Source: a virus
IMG/VR virus record: IMGVR_UViG_3300010883_000456
Coordinates: 1 to 24,221 of that record
DNA length: 24,221 nt
Strand: one strand, 5' to 3'
Of the stretch, positions 11,235 through 24,115 are shown one piece after another (positions within the stretch are counted from its first letter, which is position 1; each line of letters starts with the position of its first letter). The position numbers and the translations under genes were made by a program. The notes beneath the pieces were generated by a model. It ran no database searches, was not told the origin of the DNA, and saw only the letters and a program-made list of their open reading frames with translations.

Positions 11235-12689
11235 ATGGCGACTACACTAGAAATATCGTACTTTAATTCCTTTTGGCTAAAGAGACTGAAAAACGCTACT
11301 CAATACCAAGAAAGAAGACCAGACGGTAGTCTTGAAATAGTAACGGCACCTCTCTCGCTAGGAGGAGGGACAACAGATGGAACACCTAATGTAAGTACGG
11401 GAGCTGGATATATTAACTCAAATGTAAACGAAGACTGGTTCGTAGAAGAAGCTAGAATAGAAGGCGGTTTTAATAACGCTTCTGTTGACTTTGGAAATAA
11501 GGCTTACATAGTAGAAGAAGAATCTAGACAAGAACGTAGAAAAAACGCTATAATATATTCAGGCGTATACAATTCTAAAAATGGTATTAACAATAGTAAT
11601 CAATTCCCTATTGGTGAAGACATTACAAGAGCAGTTGATCCTGCTTCTGGAAGCATACAAAAGTTATTTGCAGAGAATACAAATTTAGTAATATTTCAAG
11701 AGCGTAAAGTTAATAGAGCACCTATAGATAAAGACGTTGTGTTTACTCAAGAAGGTCAACCTTTAACTACTAACAGTAATTTAGTTATAGGAACGCCAAG
11801 TCCTTTTGAAGGTAATTTTGGAATCTCTGAAGACCCAACCTCATTTGCTACATATGGTTATTTTAAGTATTTTACAGATAGAGACCGTGGAGTTGTTATG
11901 CAGCTAGGGCCTAATGGTCTTAATGAAATATCTAATTTTGGTATGATAGATTATTTTAGAGATTCGTTTAATTCTTTAAATTCTGCATCTGATTCAAGTA
12001 TCGTAGGAGGTTATGATGTTTATCAAAAAAACTACGTTGTAACTTTTCCAGGACTTATTAAAACATTACATTACGATGCAGCTGTTAAAGGTTGGGTTAG
12101 TTTCCAAACATATATACCAGACTTATCTACAAGCTTACAAGGCGAATATTATACTTTTGCTGGTGGTGGTATATGGAAACATTATAGTAACGCTAAATAT
12201 AATACTTTTTATAATGCATATCAAAACTCAAGCGTTACTTTTGTTTTTAATCCCAAACCAAAAATGCTTACAAAAACTTTTAAAACTATAGAATACACCG
12301 GTAGTAATGGTTGGCAGGTTGATTTTTCAACTGTTGATTACACTGGTACAGATACAAACCCACAAGGTCCAGGTCTTGGTGAAACTGATCTTGAACAAAA
12401 AGGTAATAAAATATTTAGTTACGACGAAGGTTATTACGTTAACAATGGCATAGAATACAGGGCAGGTTTTGATAGAAAACAAAACAAATATTACGCGCCT
12501 ATAAAAGCAAACAACGAGCAATTAGCAGGTCAAGTAATTTTAGGTGGTGGAGTTTATCCATTTGAATACAGTAATAATAGCGGTATAAAAGGTATGTATT
12601 TAACGGTTACTTTTTCTACAGATGGAGCAACATTTAGAGACGACTCTAAACAATTGTTTTCTGTAAGTAGTAATTACAATAATAGATAA
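11235..12689 (+). CDS. Muzzle-type beta-propeller protein (C-terminal portion as separate gene)
   Basis: This 484-aa protein has motifs I know from the C-terminal part of large phage propeller/muzzle proteins: EESRQERRKNAIIYSGVYNS (about 95-115), then a run of DPASGSIQKL, NTNLVIFQERKVNRAPIDKD, and YFTDRDRGVVMQLGPNGL with GMIDYFRD at 236-243. No N-terminal anchor corresponding to the SKMNKDLD start of the upstream protein is present, so this looks like the missing half of that protein placed in its own gene. The stop of the upstream gene and a TAATAATAATAT leader before this ATG make a simple frameshift unlikely. It probably assembles with the 1673-aa protein in the tail. Alternatively it is a separate tail propeller that arose by duplication. 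Confidence 0.6.
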   Translation: MATTLEISYFNSFWLKRLKNATQYQERRPDGSLEIVTAPLSLGGGTTDGTPNVSTGAGYINSNVNEDWFVEEARIEGGFNNASVDFGNKAYIVEEESRQERRKNAIIYSGVYNSKNGINNSNQFPIGEDITRAVDPASGSIQKLFAENTNLVIFQERKVNRAPIDKDVVFTQEGQPLTTNSNLVIGTPSPFEGNFGISEDPTSFATYGYFKYFTDRDRGVVMQLGPNGLNEISNFGMIDYFRDSFNSLNSASDSSIVGGYDVYQKNYVVTFPGLIKTLHYDAAVKGWVSFQTYIPDLSTSLQGEYYTFAGGGIWKHYSNAKYNTFYNAYQNSSVTFVFNPKPKMLTKTFKTIEYTGSNGWQVDFSTVDYTGTDTNPQGPGLGETDLEQKGNKIFSYDEGYYVNNGIEYRAGFDRKQNKYYAPIKANNEQLAGQVILGGGVYPFEYSNNSGIKGMYLTVTFSTDGATFRDDSKQLFSVSSNYNNR

Positions 12690-12699
12690 ATATAATAAT

Positions 12700-13107
12700 A
12701 TGAAATTAAATTCAAGAGGACTAACTGAAAATGACTGGAAGTTGTTAGAAAGTTGGTGGAAAGACTGGGGTTGGCCCGTATTAAATAAAGATATATTACC
12801 TGACAATGGAACAGGTGGTATTATGATTGAAAATGAAGGTAAGCCAATTGCCGCCGGTTTTTTATACTGGAGTAATTCAGGTTTATGTTGGTTAGACTGG
12901 GTAATATCTGATCACAAAGGAAACAAAAGAGCTAGACCTTTAGCAGTAAAACTATTGATAGAAACAGCAGAAGAACTAGTAAAGGCAGCAGGTAAAAAAT
13001 GCCTAATGTCAATAAGCAGAAGTAATAGCTTATTAAAAATACATAAAAAACTAGGGTGGACAATTGATGAAACTCCATCCCATGAAATGATAAAAAGAAT
13101 AATTTAA
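12700..13107 (+). CDS. GNAT-like acyltransferase-fold protein in the T7 gp13 position
   Basis: This 135-aa protein has the strand-helix order of the GNAT acetyltransferase fold: GIMIENEGKPIAAGFLYW (40-57), CWLDWVISDH (63-72), a helix RPLAVKLLIETAEELVKAAG (79-98), strand CLMSISR (101-107), and the closing SNSLLKIHKKLGW (108-120), which corresponds to the usual 'lYeklGF' element. The acyl-CoA pyrophosphate-binding loop, normally Q/R-x-x-G-x-G/A, is here KRARPLA (76-82) without the glycine, so activity is uncertain. GNAT-fold proteins are found as gp13-type internal core genes of T7-like phages, and the next three genes follow the T7 14-15-16 order, so a virion or assembly role is as likely as an enzymatic one. 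It is Trp-rich (W13, W19, W20, W23, W25). It starts 10 nt after the muzzle gene. Confidence 0.6.
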   Translation: MKLNSRGLTENDWKLLESWWKDWGWPVLNKDILPDNGTGGIMIENEGKPIAAGFLYWSNSGLCWLDWVISDHKGNKRARPLAVKLLIETAEELVKAAGKKCLMSISRSNSLLKIHKKLGWTIDETPSHEMIKRII

Positions 13108-13121
13108 AAAAAAATAATAAT

Positions 13122-13850
13122 ATGGCAGCAGTAGCAGCAGTAGCATCAGTAGCGGTCGGAGTAGGAAAAGCAGTAGGAGGAGCAGTAAAAGCCGGTAAAG
13201 CGCATAAAGAAATGCGAAGAGCTCGCGCAAGAAAACAAGTAGCAAAAGCTGGAATGTTAAACGCTATGGCGAATAGAGCAGAAATAACTAATCCTTACGC
13301 AGGGGTAACTGATCTATCTGGACTAGCCAGCGATTTATCAAGCCAAATATCTAACCCATATAATCAACTAAGTGTTTCTACAGCAGCAGCAGAAATGCAA
13401 ATTGAAGAAGCCGATATATCCTTAGCTAACACTCTTGATACTTTAGAACAAACAGGAGCAAGCGCTGGTGGTGCCACGGCTTTAGCTATGGCAGCTTTAA
13501 AATCTAAAAAAGGAGTAGCGGCAGATATTAGTAAACAAGAAGCGGACAACGCTAAACTAAGAGCTCAAGGCGAGGCACAAATGATGCGAGAGAAAGTAGC
13601 AGCAACTACTAGATATCAAGACGTATTGATAACACAAGGCACAAGAGTTGAAGACTCTGAGATAGCTGGAGAAATATTTCAGTTTACAGCTCAAGAAAAT
13701 AGAAGTAACGCAGACGTACAAATGTACTCACAGCAGTACCAAGGTTTTGCAAACCAACAATCACAATCTTCTCTTGCATCAGCAGCAGGAACAGGTGCAA
13801 TGATAGCTGGAATAGGTGAGATAGCTGGTGGTTTATTAAGCTCTGATTAG
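13122..13850 (+). CDS. Small internal virion protein, T7 gp14-like in position and composition
   Basis: This 242-aa protein has hydrophobic small-residue ends (AAVAAVASVAVGVGKAVGGA at about 2-21 and AAGTGAMIAGIGEIAGGLLS near the C-terminus). Between them is a long Ala/Gln/Glu-rich helical body with ISLANTLDTLEQTGASAGGA in the middle. That is the composition of podovirus internal core proteins that insert into the outer membrane during DNA ejection. There is no signal peptide cleavage site. The ATG follows AATAATAAT directly and lies 14 nt after the previous stop. It is the only gene in the window ending in TAG; an in-frame TAA follows after one further codon. Similarity to T7 gp14 is in architecture and gene order; I cannot claim sequence homology. 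Confidence 0.5.
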   Translation: MAAVAAVASVAVGVGKAVGGAVKAGKAHKEMRRARARKQVAKAGMLNAMANRAEITNPYAGVTDLSGLASDLSSQISNPYNQLSVSTAAAEMQIEEADISLANTLDTLEQTGASAGGATALAMAALKSKKGVAADISKQEADNAKLRAQGEAQMMREKVAATTRYQDVLITQGTRVEDSEIAGEIFQFTAQENRSNADVQMYSQQYQGFANQQSQSSLASAAGTGAMIAGIGEIAGGLLSSD

Positions 13851-13873: not shown

Positions 13874-15427
13874 ATGAACGAAATAATTAAAGCTCATAAT
13901 AGTAAAATTAATAGACTTGTTAACGTGTCTCAAGTAAGACGCGCTAATGAGTTAGACTTTTTTACAGATGCTAGTATAAAATATCGTAAATATTTAAACA
14001 GTCCTTTAGCTTTAAATAAAAACGAAGACAAAAATCTTTCAGACATTATAGTAAAAACTTTCTTAGAACAAGCTCAAGATCAAGAAATGGGAGTTCTAGT
14101 AAGACAAACTAGATTAGCTACTGATGTCAAGAACATGAGTCAGGAGCAAATAAAAGAAGACAGAGAATATATATCAACATTTTTCTCAAGATTAACTTCG
14201 ATACAAGAAATAGGAGGATATTTAATAGTTGCCGTAGAACCTGTTAAACCAGATAATTTACCTGCTTTTATATCTAGCTATAATCAGATTAATATAAACG
14301 GGACAAACGAAAGAACTAAAGATAGAAACATGTTTATGGTCGCTGCTTGGGCTGATTTATTTAATTATTTTGATGATGTAAAGGTCGAAAAAAACTTTAC
14401 GTTTAGACAAACAAACAATGGAGAAATAGCGGTTTTAAATCAAAGAATAAAAATAAAAATAACTGGTGAAACTTTTAGTAAATATTTGCACAAAAAACCT
14501 TATATTATAGATGATTTTTTAGCAAATAAAAACATAAGTTTTGATGAAAACATGGAAGGTTATTACACTATATATGGAGAGGTTGATTCTACTCAAATTC
14601 CTAATGGGGATTTATTAGATCTTTATTTATCAGAAGTTCCAGCTAGCATGGATCTAGGTTCTACTTTTGACAACGCTGGTATAACTATAAACGCAACTAT
14701 TCAACCTCAATATTTTTTAGGTGGTACTATTCCGCAAGGAGATAGAAATGATCCAGGACAAGACACAGCTATTCAAATACCTATGTTTAGTATAGAAGGT
14801 AATAAAGTAAAAAAGTCCATGATTAAACCTGTAAACACAACAGCTATAAACATGACACCTGCTTACAAAGCTGAGATTAATAACTATGTAGCTAGTTTAT
14901 TTGCTATAGCTAGTGGTAATATATCTGTATTATCTGGCTACAGTAACAAAAGACTAGGTATTGATTTACCTTTAGGTATAAACGAAGTAGCTACTAAAGA
15001 ACTAGAATCAATGTATGAGTCTTTATCTCCAGAACGTAAAGCTAGTTTTGTAGGTAATAGATATCAATTTAATACTATATCTAAAAACTCTAGTCAAAAG
15101 ATTAGTTTAGTAGATGCTCAAAAAGCTTTTATAACGCAATTGATTATGGACTCTAATTTAGATATTAAAATAATACAAGAAGATGTTCCAGGTGGGCCAA
15201 GCTTTGTTAAAGAAACTTTAACAGATCAAACAAAACAAGGTCAAGATTTAATAAAAGCATTAAACGAAAATCGAATGCCATTGCCAGATTTTTATAAAAA
15301 TCAATTAGGCATAACTGAATGGCAAGCTGGTTTACCTTTATTTTATCAAAAATTACCAGAAGAATCAAACGAATTACCAGCAGAACTTGACGAACAAACA
15401 GCAGCTTTAGTTGCTCAATATTCTTAA
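13874..15427 (+). CDS. Unknown structural protein in the T7 gp15 position
   Basis: This 517-aa protein is not one I recognise. The N-terminal 120 residues are helical and charged (MNEIIKAHNSKINRLVNVSQ; IIVKTFLEQAQDQEMGVLVR). Residues 120-300 look beta-rich (EIGGYLIVAVEPV; GYYTIYGEVDSTQIPNGDLL; TFDNAGITINATIQPQYFLG). The rest is helical again, ending in an acidic Glu/Ala tail. No catalytic motif, signal peptide or membrane segment is visible. It lies between the small Ala/Gly-rich protein and the giant protein, 9 nt upstream of the latter, which suggests a partner of the giant protein in the internal core. It could also be a tail or head protein. Confidence 0.4.
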   Translation: MNEIIKAHNSKINRLVNVSQVRRANELDFFTDASIKYRKYLNSPLALNKNEDKNLSDIIVKTFLEQAQDQEMGVLVRQTRLATDVKNMSQEQIKEDREYISTFFSRLTSIQEIGGYLIVAVEPVKPDNLPAFISSYNQININGTNERTKDRNMFMVAAWADLFNYFDDVKVEKNFTFRQTNNGEIAVLNQRIKIKITGETFSKYLHKKPYIIDDFLANKNISFDENMEGYYTIYGEVDSTQIPNGDLLDLYLSEVPASMDLGSTFDNAGITINATIQPQYFLGGTIPQGDRNDPGQDTAIQIPMFSIEGNKVKKSMIKPVNTTAINMTPAYKAEINNYVASLFAIASGNISVLSGYSNKRLGIDLPLGINEVATKELESMYESLSPERKASFVGNRYQFNTISKNSSQKISLVDAQKAFITQLIMDSNLDIKIIQEDVPGGPSFVKETLTDQTKQGQDLIKALNENRMPLPDFYKNQLGITEWQAGLPLFYQKLPEESNELPAELDEQTAALVAQYS

Positions 15428-15436
15428 TATAATTAT

Positions 15437-18400
15437 ATGGAAGAAGAAGAAGAAATCACTATTGAGGATCTTTTGAAACCCTCACCCAACCAAGTTGTTG
15501 AGGGAGAAGAAAAAGAAGAAGAAGAAAAAGAGAATCAGTATGATTTAACCCCAATAACTATAGAAAGTTTAATGGCTGCTAGGGATAAAGACTTGCCTGT
15601 CGTCAATAGTATAGAGCCAATGCCAACTGTTGTTAGAGATAACCCAGGTTTGCGTCAGTCCCGTTTAGGGGTAAAACTTGATGATGAAGGTTATCCTATG
15701 CAGCCTTTATTGAGCCAAGCCATAAACTATAACCTAGACGAAGAATTCATATTAGGACAAACTCAAAATCCTGAGGAAACTAAATTTTATATAGAAACTC
15801 AAGAAGTAACTAATGAGTTTGAAAAAATAATTAATAACCCAGTTTTAAAAGATTATTCTACAATATTACCTATACAGGCAGACGCGTTAAATCTTGATTT
15901 TGAAGATGTTCAAAAGATAGACGTTGAAGCAACAATGAATGAGTTGTCAATGGCTAAAATAAACTTACCAGCTATCGTTGCATATGACATTACAGCAAAA
16001 TCACTGATAGATGGACCTAACCCATTAATTGACGGTCCTATACCAATGTTTAATTATTCAGAAAACCCAAAAGAAGATACTACTAGGTTTTATACACCTA
16101 CTTCAGAAGTTAAAGATTATATAAGAAACTCTATACTTACAGAGACTGGAAGAGACTTTAAAGATACTATGACATGGGAAGACTTTGTAGCAAAAGCTAG
16201 CAAGGTAACAGATGAAATAATGAAGAAAGACCCTCTTATTAAAGAAATTTTTGGAAAAGCAAACATGGTTTTAAAAAACGAAGGCCAAGCTAAATACATC
16301 GAGATGTTAAACACTGCTCGAGAAGAAAATGGTTTAGACACTCCAGAAGAAATAGAAGCTTTACAAAGTCAATATAGTGATTGGGAAAAGAAAAGATGGG
16401 ATGAATTAATACAAAGTACAACTTTTGACAATAGAGCACAAAAATATCAGTTTGCTACAAAAAATGTATTAGAAGAATTATACAAACCTTTTGGAAGATC
16501 TAAAGATGAAAGTTTAGCTGAAATTGATAGAAAACTTAAGTCAGGAGAAATAAGCGAAACTTTGTGGGGATTAAGAGATATAGGAATAGGCACGTGGAGA
16601 GGATTACCTAACAAATGGAATATTCTTGATATTACCGCTAAAAAATCTACTCTTAATGAGTTCCAAAGTAATATTAATTTTTACGAAAGTAACAAAGAAA
16701 AATTAGAAAAATTAGGAATGCTTGATTTAACTAATAAAGAGTTTGAAGAAAAACTTAGATTAGCTGGGTTTCCTCAATTTAAACGTAAAAAGAAAAAAAT
16801 CAATCCGGCCCTCGGGTACGCCCGGTTATCCACTGAACAAGCTGCTAAACTGATAAAGGATTTAAAAAAGTATGACGATGATTACCCTACAACTTTAGAA
16901 TACGAAAATAGTCTTAAACACTTAACTCAAGAAGAAAAAGAATTAATGCTTGAGACATATACCCAGTTTACTGATATGCAATCTAGCATGTCTGGCTTTA
17001 ACGCTTTGGATGCTAGTCAAGGCAAGAATACTTTACGAAACGGTATGAATAGAATTATACCTAGACAAGAAATGATACTTAAAAGCACTATCGAACCTAC
17101 TATAGAAATATTAAAAAATACAAACTTTCAAAGTTTATTAAATGAAACAGATCCTGATGAGGACGGTATTGTAGATACTGTTGGTCAAATACTTAGTCAA
17201 AGTAACATGATGTTGACTTTTGGTGGAGAACTTACAGCTATGGTTGGGTCTAAAATGAAAAATCCTCTTGGAGTTGTATTGTATGGATCAGGAAAATTAG
17301 CATCTCTTATAGGTACAGCAGATATAGCAGCGCAAGAATTTGGTTCTGGAATATGGGGAACTTTTGACGCAAACATTAGAAAAAGAAAAGGAGAAAACTA
17401 CCAACCTACTTTAGATGATTACCTAGCTGAGTTAGAAGACCCAGATTCTGTAAGCATTATACAAAATATTATTAGTACTGGAGGTATTGTTGCTTTAGAA
17501 AGACTTGGTTTAGGTAAAATGTTAGGAGCTACTAAAATGACTAGCAAAAATTTAGCATCACTGTTAAGAGGAGAATATAAAACTTGGCTTAAAACTTTAC
17601 CTGCTCTTGTTTATCAAAGAGAACTTGCTGGGGGAATTGAATTTGTAACAGAAGGATCACAAGATTATATTAGTAGTGCTAATATTAAATTTGGTTCCGG
17701 AGATAGCTTAGGACAATCTATATCCGAGGCAGAGTTTGGTATGTTAGCCGCTAAAAAAGGTCGACAGATAGGTAGATTTTTACCTGTTGTAGGTCAAATA
17801 ACTAAACAAACAGCTATAGAATTAAATGCTGCTGCTTTAAAATTATCAACAAATTTTGATTTAGGTAAATATAGTCAAACATTTAAATCAACTGAATTGT
17901 TTTTTAATCAATCTATAGAAAAAATACAAAAAGATGTAGATTCTAATAAAATATCACAAGAGGACGGTCAGTTAGCGATTAGAAATATATCAAATATAAG
18001 AAATGCTGGTATGAAAATACCTACTAACATAGACGGTAGATCTAAACCCAGACTAATGAGACTATTGTTAGAGCAACAAGCTTTACAAAATAAAATTAAA
18101 GAAATAGACAATAAAGACTTAAGCGCTAATGACATTTTACAGTTAGCTACAGTATCTAGTCAAATTCAAGGTATAGTTAAAAAAGCTGACTCAAGAGAAA
18201 ATTACATTAAACAAGTTGGAAATGTTGTTAATATTATAAATAATAACGAAAACGCTAAAGTAAAAATAATACGTAGCAAAGATAATAAAGGTGTTGAAAA
18301 TCAAATAGACAAATTAAACAGTGAAGGCTGGAAAATAGCAGCGTCAAAAGGTTTAACAACCAATTATGGTACTATATTTCAAAAAGGTGATCAACAAGTT

Positions 18401-21400
18401 ATACTACTTAACGATAAAGAAATATTAGCTGATGGCGCTATAAACACAGCTGCTCATGAATTTTTACATGCTGTATTATGGAATACGGTAAAAAATAGTA
18501 AAGGAACTGCGTTAGCTTTAGGAAATGATTTGGTTAAATATTTAAAAGACGTAAATCCTGAGTTAATGAAAAACTCTGTTTTAGTCGATAGATTACAGCT
18601 ATACAAAGATGATGCTACTGTAACTAACGAGCAGCAAGCCGAAGAAGTTTTAACTTTATTTTCAGAAGCAGCGTTAGACGGTGCTATAGAATTAAACGAA
18701 GGAGCATTAGATCAGATACAAGGTTTTTTTACAAGAATATTTAACTCTTTAATAGGTCGTGAAGCAAACCTTACTTTTAATAGTGGTAAAGACGTGTTTA
18801 AGTTTATAAAAGGTTATAATGAAAGCATAAAGAAAGGTAAATTTACTACTGCTCAAAATAAACTACTTGAAGGTAGAGCAGAAGGTGATTTAATTAAAAG
18901 AGAATACAAAACTAAAGATATAAAAGATCGTGACACCGCCTCTAAAAGCAGCCAAAGTTTTGATAAAACAAATGAATTGTTTTCTGATCCAGACTTTGAA
19001 GCTACCAATAGGTTTGATCAAAAGAATGCTGTAAAAGCTGCAGGCGGAGTTATAGAAGCAGCAACTCAAAGATTATGGAGACAAGGCAGTCTGTTAACAA
19101 GAGATCAATTTAAAAAAGCTTTAGAAAACGAATACGTACAGGCATTAGTAGAATATGATTCCAATAGAGATACTGGAACTGGAGCTGGTTCTTCAATTTC
19201 AAGTAAGTTTAATTTAAGAGCCGGTGGAGTTGCTAAAGCTAATTTAGGAAAAGGCGAATCTTTAAGTTTAGATTCTGAGCAAGCTAAACAAGTAGCAGAT
19301 AAAACAGAGCAAAGAGAGTTTGACGAAGTAGAAAGTAAAGAGAACACACAAAGAAAAAAAGTATACTCTTCCAACACAAATCAAGTTGGTAATTTAGACA
19401 CAGCAGAAACTAAAGCTATTATAAAAGAAGAAGTTTCTAAAGATATATTGCTGTCTGCTAATAAAGGTAACAACGCTGCAGATACAGCTAGAGTTATAGC
19501 TAACGAAGCTAAGCAAAATTACTTTAAAAAACTTAGAAAAGATATAGGAACTTTTTCTAGTCAAAAATATAAAGATTTTGTAAACTCATTAGATAAAAAC
19601 TTTATTAAGTCTTTACCAGTTTCAATTATAAAAAGAAGATTTGGCAAGTTGTTTGGAATAAAACAAACAGGGATTGCTAAGACTAAACAAACAAGCAAAA
19701 CAGGTAAGCCTAGCTATTTTAATAAACCAGTTTTTAGCGTACCTAAAGTAACAAACGAAGGCTTACAACAGTTTAAAGATTATTTCTTGGGAGGAGAAAA
19801 AAGACAACAGTCTTTATACAATATACTAGCTACTGATTTTGCTTTAGAATCTATACAAGAGCTAATGTCGGACAAAACTTTCATGGACAAGCTACAAACT
19901 TCTTTAGGTGATCAAGGTATTACAGCTAATGAGTTTATGCAAAATATTGAAAACAAGTTAGACGCAAGAACAGTAGAAGATACTTCGTTAGATGTGGTTA
20001 AAGCTAGTAAGAAATATAAAACATCTGCAACAATTGTTGATCTTACTATTGAAAATTATATGTCAGATAAGGGTTTTACAACGTTCGCAACAAAAGGTCA
20101 TTATTTTGGACACGATAAATTCACTGATGATCAGATAAAAGCAAGAAACGAAAGCGTGCTATTGACTATACCTGAGCTTGGTTTAGATTTTTATGAGTTT
20201 ACTAATTCTAAAAATGGAAAAACAAGAAGTTCAGATTCTTTCGGCGCAAGCAGCGGAAGAACTATATTTAATTTCAATGCTGGTAACAAGATTGATCAAT
20301 TAAAAGATTTGCTTAATGCTGCTTTAACTGGTGAGTTTATTAAAGCTAATCCAGAATATGTAAAAAAATATACTAAAACCATTGGCAATGATGTATTTTT
20401 AGATAAAGCTAAACTTAAAAAAGGCTCTGCATTAAGCACTAAAGATATTACTGTATTAAAAAAAGCAGAATCAGAACAAGGTCAATACGCGAAATTAAGT
20501 CCAGAAAAAAGAATAAAATTATTAAGAGATAAAAAATTTAGAGACTTCCAAGCAGACAAAAGTAAAATACTAAAAAAGATACTTAACGTTATAAGTAAAA
20601 ACGTAAGAACAGACGGAAAAATAATACCAGCTAGAATGGAGTTCTGGGCTTCTTGGATAAATAGTCAAGTTAACAATTCAAAACATGTGATGAGAGTTTT
20701 AGCTCCTATTGAATTCTTTTCTTTGTCTAAAATGCCTAAAAGTACATTTGTTGAAGGTTATAAATTAAATAAAAATGATGAAGTAGTCTCTGGCAATCCT
20801 TTAAACTATGTTGCAGAACATTTAATGCCTGCTAATAACGCAGCTAAAATAGCAGTTGATCTTATATATAATAACACTGTCAATAAAGACTTTAGTTTAA
20901 TAAAAGATAATTACGTTCAAGGTCAGTTATTAAAAACAGATGACGTTATAGTTGGAAAAGCTGGTTATACTTCTCAGTTTCCTAGTGAGTTTTGGCAAAT
21001 GGACAAGCCAAACGTTTGGGTTAGATATTTATTAGGTAATCCTAACATAAACTTAAACCAATATGTTACTTATAAAGATGGAAAAGTAATGACTATAGCT
21101 GAAAGCTTAGGTTTGCCTTTAGATAAATCATTAAGAAATCCTGATAGTATTAACTTTCAAAATAAATTACTTACAGAAATTTTAGGTGTATATAAAGAAA
21201 ATAATACTTTTGTATTAAAAGAACCTAAAAGCATTAAAAATGCTAAAGCAGAATTAAAAGATTCTCAAATAGTAAATCAAAAATCATCTAAGAAAGTTAA
21301 TGTAAATCAAAAAACTTTATTTAACTTAATAACTCCTAATAGTACAACAGAAGCTTCTATTGAAGCTATGGGTAATGCAGACAAAACAGTAGATCTTGGA

Positions 21401-24115
21401 AATAAAGCGAGTAAGAAAATAAAAGGTATAAGTGTATTTGATTTTGATGATACGTTAGCTTTCAGTAAAAGCATGGTTATAGTTAACCTATCTAATGGAA
21501 CTACTCAAAAAATAACACCAGCTGAATTTGCAAGCGAAGCAGAGTTATTAGAAGAAAATGGAGCAGAGTTTGATTTTAGTGAATTTAATAAAGTTGTTGA
21601 TGGCAAAAAAGGACCATTAGCAGATCTTGCTTTAAAACGTCAAGATAAGTTTGGTAGTGGAGATATATTTGTATTAACGGCTAGACCTCAAGCATCGGCT
21701 TTAAGTATTAAAAAGTTCTTAGATGGCATAGGATTAAACTTACCTTTAGAAAATATAACTGGTTTAGAAAATGGTAGTCCTGACGCTAAAGCACTATGGG
21801 TGTTAGATAAAACAGCTAAAGGATATAATGATTTTTATTTTGCTGATGATGCACTAGCTAATGTGCAAGCTGTTAAAAATATTCTTGATCAAGTAGATGT
21901 TAAATCTGAAGTACAGCAAGCTAAAGCTAGTAAGAAAAGAAATTTAAATAAAGAATTTAATGGAATAATAGAACAACAAAGTGGAAAAGAATGGTTCAAA
22001 AATTATTCTGATTCTAGAGCTAAAGTAGAAGGTAAAGCTAAAAATAAATTTGAATTCTTTATTCCACCTTCAGCAGAAGATTTTACAGGTTTATTATATA
22101 AGATATTACCAAAAGGTGAAAAAGGTAATTTAGCTAAACAATGGATTCAGGACAATTTATTAGATCCATTTAATAAAGCTGAGCAATTAGTTATAAAAGC
22201 TAAAATAGCAGTTGCTAATGATTTTCAAGAATTAAGAAAAAATATTAAAAATGTTCCTAAAAATCTTTCTAAGCAATCAGGCTATAGCAAGTTTACTTTT
22301 TCTCAAGCTTTAAGAGTTCATATATGGACAATGCAAGGTATGGAAATACCTGGTTTATCAACAAGAGATAAAAACGCTTTAAATAAATTAATAGAAAAAG
22401 ATCCTGCATTAAAAGTTTTTGCTGAAAAAATAGCATTTATACAAAAAGGAAAACAATACCCTGGTCCTAACACTAATTGGGTTTCTGGATCTATTACATC
22501 AGATATTATAAATGGAATACAAAAAGTATACAGAAAAGAAGCTTTACAAGAATGGCAAGATAATGTAGATATTATATTTTCTAAAGACAACATGAATAAA
22601 TTAGAAGCTATATACGGTTCTAATTTTACTATAGCTTTAAATAACATGTTATCTAGAATGAAAAGCGGAAGCAACAGACCTGTTGGTGGCAATGCTCAAG
22701 TAGAAAACGTAATGGATTGGTTAAACAATTCAGTTGGTGCTATAATGTTTTTAAACGTTAAATCAGGATTACTACAGCTTATATCTTCAGTTAACTTTAT
22801 GAACTGGAGTGATAATAATCCATTAGCTGCTGGAAAAGCTTTTGCTAATCAAAAACAATATTGGAAAGATGTAATGTATTTATTGAACTCTGATTATTTA
22901 GTACAAAGACGTAACGGGTTAAAAATAAATGTAGCTGAATCTGAAATTGCAGAAGCATCTAAAAAAGGTGGACTTAAAGGCGTTATTGCTTACATGCTTA
23001 ATAAAGGTTTTATATTTACTAGAATAGCAGATAGTTTAGCTATTTCAACTGGTGGTTCAACTTTTTACAGAAATAGGGTAAATAGCTTACTTAAGCAGGT
23101 GAACATAGATACAGGCAAGCTTTATACTAAAGCAGAAGCAGAGGCTATAGCATTCAATGATTTCTATCAAGTATCAGAAGAAAGCCAACAGTCAAGTAGA
23201 ACAGATAGAATATCAATGCAACAAGCAAGTGGTCTTGGTAGGTTAGTGTTAAACTTTGCTAATACACCTATGCAGTACGCTAGAATAATTAAAAAGTCTA
23301 CAGCAGATTTATTAGCAGGAAGAGGTGATTGGAAAACTAATTTATCTAAAATATTTTATTATGGAATAGCTCAGAATTTAATATTTAACGCAATGCAAGC
23401 TGCAGTGTTTACGGTATTATTTAAAGAAGATGACGACGAAGATAAAGAAGGAAGAGCTATAGATGACAAAGCTAGAGACGTTGGTCAAGGAATGTTAAGT
23501 TCTTTGTTAAGAGGTTTAGGATACGGTGGAGCTTTAGTAGATACATTGATAGCTGTTAGTTTAGAAGTAAACAAACAATCAAAAAAGAAAACACCAGATT
23601 TTGAAGAAGCTGTTTGGTCTGTATTTGATTACTCTCCAGCTATGGATTCTAAAATAAGAAAACTAAGAAGCGCAGCTAAAACTTATAAATACAATAGAGA
23701 AGAAATATACAGAAGAGGATTTAATCTTGAAAATCCAGCTTATTTAGCTATAGGTCAATTGATATCAGCTTCTACAAATGCTCCAGCTGATAGAATATTA
23801 AGATTAATGATGAGCATAAAACAAATGGGAGACAAAGATCTTGAGTTATGGCAAAGAGCAATGTTAGCCTTTGGTTATAGTAGTTGGCAAGCAGATTTAC
23901 CATACTGGGGAACTAAAACTACTCTAGAAAATGAAGAAAAAGAAGATGCTAAAATTAAATTGCAATACAAAAACGACGCTCGTAAGTTAAAAACTGGCGG
24001 TTACAAAAGAAGACCTATGACAAAAGGCGTGCCAGAAGGTAAGCTAAACGTAGATTATATAAGAGTAGAAAGACCTACCGGAGATTATGAATATTGGTTA
24101 ACACCAAAAAATTAA
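15437..24115 (+). CDS. Giant 2892-aa virion protein with metallopeptidase and HAD phosphatase motifs
   Basis: This is probably the largest ejected internal virion protein, in the T7 gp16 position. Regions in order: an acidic start (Glu runs, 1-40); KRKKKKIN (449-456) beside a GC-rich codon patch; a Gly/hydrophobic stretch (about 589-650) that may meet membrane; GGIEFVTEGSQDYISS (about 735-750). A peptidase-like domain spans about 939-1135, with H1007-E-F-L-H1011 as zinc site and EE at 1069-1070 as possible third ligand. A HAD domain spans about 2000-2155, with DFDDT (2002-2006, nucleophile and acid/base Asp), VLTARP (2079-2084, motif II Thr) and ADDALANV (motif IV acids, 2137-2138). A conserved-looking C-terminal block follows (KNKFEFFIPPSAEDFTGLLY; FANTPMQYARII), with hydrophobic helices near 2430 and 2650. 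Such giant multi-domain proteins are known from marine phages; activities here are inferred from motifs only. No RNA polymerase motif is seen. Confidence 0.7.
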   Translation: MEEEEEITIEDLLKPSPNQVVEGEEKEEEEKENQYDLTPITIESLMAARDKDLPVVNSIEPMPTVVRDNPGLRQSRLGVKLDDEGYPMQPLLSQAINYNLDEEFILGQTQNPEETKFYIETQEVTNEFEKIINNPVLKDYSTILPIQADALNLDFEDVQKIDVEATMNELSMAKINLPAIVAYDITAKSLIDGPNPLIDGPIPMFNYSENPKEDTTRFYTPTSEVKDYIRNSILTETGRDFKDTMTWEDFVAKASKVTDEIMKKDPLIKEIFGKANMVLKNEGQAKYIEMLNTAREENGLDTPEEIEALQSQYSDWEKKRWDELIQSTTFDNRAQKYQFATKNVLEELYKPFGRSKDESLAEIDRKLKSGEISETLWGLRDIGIGTWRGLPNKWNILDITAKKSTLNEFQSNINFYESNKEKLEKLGMLDLTNKEFEEKLRLAGFPQFKRKKKKINPALGYARLSTEQAAKLIKDLKKYDDDYPTTLEYENSLKHLTQEEKELMLETYTQFTDMQSSMSGFNALDASQGKNTLRNGMNRIIPRQEMILKSTIEPTIEILKNTNFQSLLNETDPDEDGIVDTVGQILSQSNMMLTFGGELTAMVGSKMKNPLGVVLYGSGKLASLIGTADIAAQEFGSGIWGTFDANIRKRKGENYQPTLDDYLAELEDPDSVSIIQNIISTGGIVALERLGLGKMLGATKMTSKNLASLLRGEYKTWLKTLPALVYQRELAGGIEFVTEGSQDYISSANIKFGSGDSLGQSISEAEFGMLAAKKGRQIGRFLPVVGQITKQTAIELNAAALKLSTNFDLGKYSQTFKSTELFFNQSIEKIQKDVDSNKISQEDGQLAIRNISNIRNAGMKIPTNIDGRSKPRLMRLLLEQQALQNKIKEIDNKDLSANDILQLATVSSQIQGIVKKADSRENYIKQVGNVVNIINNNENAKVKIIRSKDNKGVENQIDKLNSEGWKIAASKGLTTNYGTIFQKGDQQVILLNDKEILADGAINTAAHEFLHAVLWNTVKNSKGTALALGNDLVKYLKDVNPELMKNSVLVDRLQLYKDDATVTNEQQAEEVLTLFSEAALDGAIELNEGALDQIQGFFTRIFNSLIGREANLTFNSGKDVFKFIKGYNESIKKGKFTTAQNKLLEGRAEGDLIKREYKTKDIKDRDTASKSSQSFDKTNELFSDPDFEATNRFDQKNAVKAAGGVIEAATQRLWRQGSLLTRDQFKKALENEYVQALVEYDSNRDTGTGAGSSISSKFNLRAGGVAKANLGKGESLSLDSEQAKQVADKTEQREFDEVESKENTQRKKVYSSNTNQVGNLDTAETKAIIKEEVSKDILLSANKGNNAADTARVIANEAKQNYFKKLRKDIGTFSSQKYKDFVNSLDKNFIKSLPVSIIKRRFGKLFGIKQTGIAKTKQTSKTGKPSYFNKPVFSVPKVTNEGLQQFKDYFLGGEKRQQSLYNILATDFALESIQELMSDKTFMDKLQTSLGDQGITANEFMQNIENKLDARTVEDTSLDVVKASKKYKTSATIVDLTIENYMSDKGFTTFATKGHYFGHDKFTDDQIKARNESVLLTIPELGLDFYEFTNSKNGKTRSSDSFGASSGRTIFNFNAGNKIDQLKDLLNAALTGEFIKANPEYVKKYTKTIGNDVFLDKAKLKKGSALSTKDITVLKKAESEQGQYAKLSPEKRIKLLRDKKFRDFQADKSKILKKILNVISKNVRTDGKIIPARMEFWASWINSQVNNSKHVMRVLAPIEFFSLSKMPKSTFVEGYKLNKNDEVVSGNPLNYVAEHLMPANNAAKIAVDLIYNNTVNKDFSLIKDNYVQGQLLKTDDVIVGKAGYTSQFPSEFWQMDKPNVWVRYLLGNPNINLNQYVTYKDGKVMTIAESLGLPLDKSLRNPDSINFQNKLLTEILGVYKENNTFVLKEPKSIKNAKAELKDSQIVNQKSSKKVNVNQKTLFNLITPNSTTEASIEAMGNADKTVDLGNKASKKIKGISVFDFDDTLAFSKSMVIVNLSNGTTQKITPAEFASEAELLEENGAEFDFSEFNKVVDGKKGPLADLALKRQDKFGSGDIFVLTARPQASALSIKKFLDGIGLNLPLENITGLENGSPDAKALWVLDKTAKGYNDFYFADDALANVQAVKNILDQVDVKSEVQQAKASKKRNLNKEFNGIIEQQSGKEWFKNYSDSRAKVEGKAKNKFEFFIPPSAEDFTGLLYKILPKGEKGNLAKQWIQDNLLDPFNKAEQLVIKAKIAVANDFQELRKNIKNVPKNLSKQSGYSKFTFSQALRVHIWTMQGMEIPGLSTRDKNALNKLIEKDPALKVFAEKIAFIQKGKQYPGPNTNWVSGSITSDIINGIQKVYRKEALQEWQDNVDIIFSKDNMNKLEAIYGSNFTIALNNMLSRMKSGSNRPVGGNAQVENVMDWLNNSVGAIMFLNVKSGLLQLISSVNFMNWSDNNPLAAGKAFANQKQYWKDVMYLLNSDYLVQRRNGLKINVAESEIAEASKKGGLKGVIAYMLNKGFIFTRIADSLAISTGGSTFYRNRVNSLLKQVNIDTGKLYTKAEAEAIAFNDFYQVSEESQQSSRTDRISMQQASGLGRLVLNFANTPMQYARIIKKSTADLLAGRGDWKTNLSKIFYYGIAQNLIFNAMQAAVFTVLFKEDDDEDKEGRAIDDKARDVGQGMLSSLLRGLGYGGALVDTLIAVSLEVNKQSKKKTPDFEEAVWSVFDYSPAMDSKIRKLRSAAKTYKYNREEIYRRGFNLENPAYLAIGQLISASTNAPADRILRLMMSIKQMGDKDLELWQRAMLAFGYSSWQADLPYWGTKTTLENEEKEDAKIKLQYKNDARKLKTGGYKRRPMTKGVPEGKLNVDYIRVERPTGDYEYWLTPKN

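Follow-up and report, generated by a model that had tools for sequence, protein, structure and literature searches.

A giant protein of a marine crAss-like phage, likely virion-borne, combines a zincin-type metallopeptidase domain with a HAD-superfamily phosphatase domain in one chain

We report that a single open frame (15437..24115, + strand) on a marine phage fragment encodes a giant protein of 2892 amino acids in which a zinc-peptidase-type domain and a HAD domain lie in one chain, each with all of its key residues, as a preliminary description of this DNA had proposed. The frame is the last one on a virus record of 24,221 bases, the whole of which was analysed and is called the window here. 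Judged from aligned relatives, both the peptidase site and the HAD site are real, and both domains are conserved in more than 100 relatives. The gene, its motifs and their conservation, the superfamily-level domains, the homology of the N-terminal region and the independent loss and exchange of modules can be taken as established from sequence. These findings lead us to favor, with moderate confidence, a model in which the protein is a giant cargo (ejection) protein of polyvalent type that delivers a peptidase and a HAD phosphatase into the host cell.

The window covers part of a podovirus structural module in which the portal, major capsid protein, muzzle and small proteins are followed by the giant; the portal C-terminus and the capsid protein have PHROG head and packaging matches. 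The muzzle-type tail protein (11235..12689, + strand) carries a crAss_MUZ_C domain (Pfam PF25729, 1.9e-12) and matches that of phi38:1, a member of the Pervagoviridae. A 135-residue protein (12700-13107), whose place beside the muzzle is conserved, is homologous to phi38:1 gp098 and also to an MW202828 protein annotated as an acetyltransferase subunit. A 242-residue neighbour (13122..13850, + strand) with a hydrophobic N-terminus is homologous to phi38:1 gp099, which is annotated as structural, and is a candidate small ejection protein. The 517-residue protein that adjoins the giant upstream (13874..15427, + strand) holds the position of phi38:1 gp100, with which no sequence match was found. 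The suggestion that the giant occupies the position of T7 gp16 therefore survives as an analogy only: its neighbours, the muzzle and the gp098 and gp099 homologues, are of crAss-like/Pervagoviridae type. The capsid protein shares 49% identity with that of an uncultured Manatee Spring phage, 47% with that of Maribacter phage Panino and 41% with those of Flavobacterium elemo phages. The source phage is thus probably a marine podovirus of crAss-like/Pervagoviridae type with a Bacteroidota host: the hosts of the named relatives are Bacteroidota, and the metagenome-assembled genome (MAG) contigs that bear relatives include Flavobacteriaceae, Saprospiraceae and Sphingobacteriales. Contigs of this phage group also sit, probably through mis-binning, in bins of unrelated genomes (L086, L087, L090 (Aliivibrio MAG) and L095 (Woesearchaeota MAG)).

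The reality of the motifs is best judged from the family. All of them lie at the residues first described: HEFLH at 1007-1011, the sole HExxH in the protein, EE at 1069-1070, DFDDT at 2002-2006, LTARP at 2080-2084 and ADD at 2136-2138. Composition shuffles gave expectations per protein of 0.0015 for HExxH, 0.004 for DFD[DEG]T and 0.059 for the LTARP-type pattern, and conservation in aligned relatives rules out chance motifs. A tblastn search of IMG/VR returned 155 relatives, and 80 loci with full or partial relatives were kept; a second search, with the HAD alignment, found at least 511 matching places in IMG/VR. Among named phages, tblastn with P0001 gave no match. Across residues 1-1970 of 72 aligned full-length giants the mean top-residue frequency is only about 0.1-0.3, and the sole columns conserved to at least 90% are H1007, E1008, H1011 and E1070. 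The last third is different, with strong conservation of the HAD and of a helical C-terminal region. In about 160 aligned HAD copies D2002, D2004, T2006, R2083, K2118, D2137 and D2138 are either fully conserved or differ in a single sequence. We counted 143 HAD-bearing giants, 139 of them usable once four pieces of frame-broken genes were set aside, and 128 of these 139 contain a single HExxH, which in every case precedes the HAD; the other 11 have HExxxH (2), EExxH (5), HDxxH (2) or a peptidase site that is not recognisable (2). Two samples are biased toward intact motifs: alignment A1, whose sequences were picked by length, and a tally of 115 of 115, in which default filters drop divergent copies.

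The peptidase region spans residues 860-1145 (18014..18871, + strand) and is supported by an AlphaFold model, near-invariant columns and profile comparisons. HEFLH (18455..18469, + strand) would supply two zinc ligands and the catalytic glutamate, and E1070 (18644..18646, + strand), 59 residues past H1011 and a glutamate in 69 of 72 giants, is the probable third ligand. In the model (pLDDT 87.3) the elements follow a zincin-like order, with a helical lead-in, a beta-alpha-beta-beta-beta unit, the HExxH helix, which four strands precede, and a helix bearing the glutamate. H1007, E1008 and H1011 share one predicted helix (model residues 145-159) and E1070 lies on a later one (205-221), so that the predicted structure has the HExxH and the downstream Glu on a following helix that mark zincins, an order of elements that does not speak against a shared site for these residues. 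When profiles were compared with hhalign, the peptidase aligned its HExxH with those of SprT-like proteins (P 2.3e-4), of the metallopeptidase region of the N4 virion RNA polymerase (vRNAP; P 2.1e-3) and, over 15 columns only, of MPTase-PolyVal (P 7.2e-3); column-shuffled controls all scored below the real profile. The window's copy did not match Pfam MPTase-PolyVal (PF18818) even with hits admitted up to E 1, and a search for this family in Bacteroidota genomes gave few reference sequences. A Foldseek search of the PDB with the model found no zincin and nothing below E 0.1; in BFVD the best match was a protein of an uncultured virus (E 5.1e-5) and a named neighbour was a PolyVal ADP-ribosyltransferase (prob 0.87, E 0.06). 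We accordingly assign the region to the zincin-type metallopeptidases at the level of superfamily, a placement drawn from sequence and model under which proteolysis would be its expected activity. One giant from an uncultured phage (L083:26355-37934), annotated as a reticulocyte binding/rhoptry protein, has two HEFGH motifs, at 1615 and 2500. Four others (L031, L033, L035 and L055) contain a stretch such as NYDPSKGLEFSTYVNSVIPKR that by eye resembles sigma-factor region 2; the stretch recurs in L143, where the peptidase is missing, and gave no Pfam match.

Between the two enzyme domains, the middle region (residues 1146-1974; 18872..21358, + strand) gave no known Pfam domain. Inside this otherwise variable region an EHxxP motif (1794-1798; 20816-20830) and R1863 (21023-21025) are conserved: E in 85%, H in 83% and R in 64% of the full alignment, and all in at least 90% of alignment A5. 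They are possibly a third functional site. A Pfam search for a lysozyme or transglycosylase found none in the N-terminal and middle regions of 35 family members. An endolysin was considered for the N-terminus of L040 (contig position 30714-31001, locus L274) and rejected, as the weak PHROG match spans about 100 of the 870 positions in the profile.

The HAD domain (residues 1985-2180; 21389..21976, + strand) has all four motifs of the superfamily, with two aspartates, a Thr/Ser, a lysine and an acidic pair. In motif I, DFDDT (21440..21454, + strand), D2002 and D2004 are present in 72 of 72 giants; in motif II, LTARP (21674..21688, + strand), T2081 is kept in 68 of 72, with serine in the other 4, and R2083 in 72 of 72. 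The motif III lysine K2118 (21788..21790, + strand) is found in 160 of 160 aligned copies, and D2137 and D2138 of motif IV, ADD (21842..21850, + strand), in 71 of 72, with one gap. In the AlphaFold model A2, motif I ends the strand 23-28, motif II the strand 103-107 and motif IV the strand 158-163, and D2002 and D2004 lie where the first strand of an alpha/beta domain finishes, a placement that does not contradict a HAD fold. No Pfam, PHROG or NCBIfam HAD model matched the window's own copy. Profiles did match in relatives: DUF2608 in 28 of 53 members, the PHROG_415 polynucleotide kinase in 26 of 53 (best 2.4e-7), the TIGR01664 DNA 3'-phosphatase in 15 of 43 and TIGR01509 (HAD-IA) in 10 of 43. 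A search for DUF2608 in Bacteroidota genomes gave no reference sequences. With hhalign, the HAD profile resembled mixed bacterial HADs (P 3.9e-6) and polynucleotide-kinase-like HADs (P 3.4e-4), all shuffled controls scoring lower than the real profile, and Foldseek found HAD structures in the PDB at prob 0.93 (Ceg4, E 0.43) and 0.44, none below E 0.1. Sequence and model thus point to a HAD phosphatase, to be placed at superfamily level only, and catalysis is argued for by the near-invariance of the catalytic residues D, D, T, R, K, D and D in about 160 relatives. That a polynucleotide kinase and a DNA 3'-phosphatase are the named HAD profiles nearest to it lends some support to the earlier idea that the phosphatase acts on nucleic acid ends. 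In one relative (L086:1-6579) about 195 residues are inserted in the HAD between motifs I and II.

Beyond the HAD, the highly conserved C-terminal region (residues 2181-2850; 21977..23986, + strand), defined by the conservation profile, is alpha-helical in the AlphaFold model. At the other end of the chain, the fast-diverging N-terminal region (residues 1-859; 15437..18013, + strand) ties the giant to cultured phages: its profile, A4, matches phi38:1 gp101 (1e-24), elemoE gp18 (6.1e-20) and Panino CDS0069 (3.5e-15). The first two hold the same gene position as the giant and were annotated by their depositors as 'structural protein', a label that for phi38:1 gp101 was given, according to the record, by similarity to phi18:1 gp101. 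The three differ in their enzymes. ElemoE gp18 shares the peptidase, whose profile it matches at 2.6e-14 with its HEIFH aligned, and lacks the HAD; phi38:1 gp101 and Panino CDS0069 have neither the peptidase nor the HAD motif. Gene position and homology to an annotated structural protein make a virion role for the giant likely, and mass spectrometry of PhicrAss001 reports large cargo proteins in its virion (PMC10172136). Because both domains are conserved in more than 100 relatives, it is probable that the infecting phage supplies the cell with finished enzymes as its DNA enters. As read from these sequences, the giant would be a cargo protein packaged in the virion, with enzyme modules that can be exchanged, and would stand near the 'polyvalent proteins'.

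The modules come and go separately. Nine HAD-bearing giants are without an intact peptidase site (EExxH in five, HDxxH in two, the domain not recognisable in two), and on a tree of C-terminal sequences this loss takes about eight parsimony changes. Their HAD motifs are kept, with DLDDT for DFDDT in L143. Conversely, an HExxH stands without a detectable HAD in three relatives and beside the remnant of one in a fourth. The peptidase and HAD have thus been lost independently; the enzymes are therefore exchangeable, neither depending on the other across the family. The giants of L019 and L025 are 93% identical across the HAD and C-terminus, and residues 1-1050 of L019 have no match in the L025 giant. 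This pattern suggests a recent module exchange, the one such event seen, in which the C-terminal region travelled with the HAD as a cassette. Gene splits were rejected as proof of separable modules, L201 being a frameshift and L013 a tandem duplication; splits in L034 and L077 look like frame breaks and were left out as evidence.

These patterns bear on how the two enzymes might work together. The preliminary description had raised the possibility that the giant cuts itself, and the peptidase could in principle be an obligatory self-processing protease that acts within the virion or once injected to free the HAD together with the C-terminal part. Iyer et al. 2017 (PMC5512222) suggested autoproteolysis for the zincin-like domains of polyvalent proteins, P1 DdrB among them, and in the giants the HAD is always preceded by the peptidase in the same chain. 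However, the peptidase site is gone from at least nine relatives in which the same long chain and the HAD persist, and what might have passed for gene splits are a frameshift and a duplication. It is unlikely that the HAD must be released by the peptidase, because the peptidase is lost with the HAD intact and vice versa, and we regard this reading as improbable. Somewhat less doubtful, yet still unlikely, is that the peptidase is an anti-host effector that cleaves a host or defence protein at entry while the HAD dephosphorylates a host phosphoprotein or a signalling nucleotide and not nucleic-acid ends. The independent variation of the two modules fits this idea, as do the DUF2608 matches and the best structural match of the HAD, Legionella Ceg4, which we take to be a HAD phosphotyrosine phosphatase; PHROG_415 and TIGR01664, which also rank among the top HAD profiles, speak against it. 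Least probable of all, in our judgment, is that the HAD serves virion structure or assembly, or is an ordinary nucleotidase, in a giant that is never injected. The large conserved helical C-terminal region would suit such a protein, but the catalytic HAD residues are near-invariant in about 160 relatives and the HAD is dispensable in some.

We therefore return to delivery by a polyvalent-type cargo protein, a model in which packaging, ejection, catalysis, substrates and host are what we infer. We envision a chain made up of an N-terminal virion/ejection region, a zincin-type metallopeptidase, a variable middle, a HAD phosphatase and a helical C-terminus. Most likely it would be kept in the virion, pass as a thread into the cell either alongside the DNA or before it, and regain its fold there. 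The HAD could then dephosphorylate a macromolecule, our best guess being 3'-phosphorylated nucleic-acid ends produced by host nucleases or damage, and the peptidase could cut a host protein or make an optional processing cut. The fullest version is one that we offer as speculation and consider unlikely: an abundant marine crAss-like lineage would pre-load its virions with an exchangeable anti-defence metallopeptidase and with an end-healing phosphatase, so that breaks made in DNA or RNA by host nucleases at entry could be repaired ahead of phage gene expression. If delivery is confirmed, a HAD phosphatase would join the set of enzymes that phages are likely to introduce along with their genomes; the phage group concerned has at least 511 matching places in IMG/VR. 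The peptidase half is open to direct test in the cultured relative elemoE, a phage of Flavobacterium sp. BAL314.

The giant recalls several known systems. T7 gp16 carries a lytic transglycosylase for entry and, like the giant, is a very large protein that ends a podovirus structural module; the giant, by contrast, has no detected transglycosylase and lies in a crAss-like gene neighbourhood. The vRNAP of Escherichia phage N4, gp50, is likewise a giant virion protein that adjoins structural genes, and its only HExxH (HELVH at 2228) lies in a similar strand-HExxH context, although the peptidase similarity reaches only P 2.1e-3. The giant differs from it in having a HAD and no RNA polymerase. A homology of the two C-termini, suggested by eye, was discarded when its hhalign score did not exceed those of column-shuffled controls. 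The polynucleotide kinase/3'-phosphatase HADs (PHROG_415, TIGR01664) share the DxD(T), (T/S)xR and DD motifs, with profile similarity in many relatives, but the giant has no visible kinase domain and the window's copy falls below threshold. A further parallel is with the polyvalent proteins of phages and conjugative elements (PMC5512222). These too are very large multidomain chains encoded by virion genes that combine a zincin-like metallopeptidase with a second, unrelated enzyme, and their domain content varies between relatives. The giant departs from them in that no part of it outside the peptidase and HAD is recognised, and in its HAD, since neither a HAD nor a phosphatase is named in the main text of that study. 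It nevertheless bears one mark of the class, at least two unrelated enzyme domains on a single polypeptide encoded close to virion genes, and our best reading of the giant is as virion cargo of polyvalent type that includes a HAD as an uncommon module.
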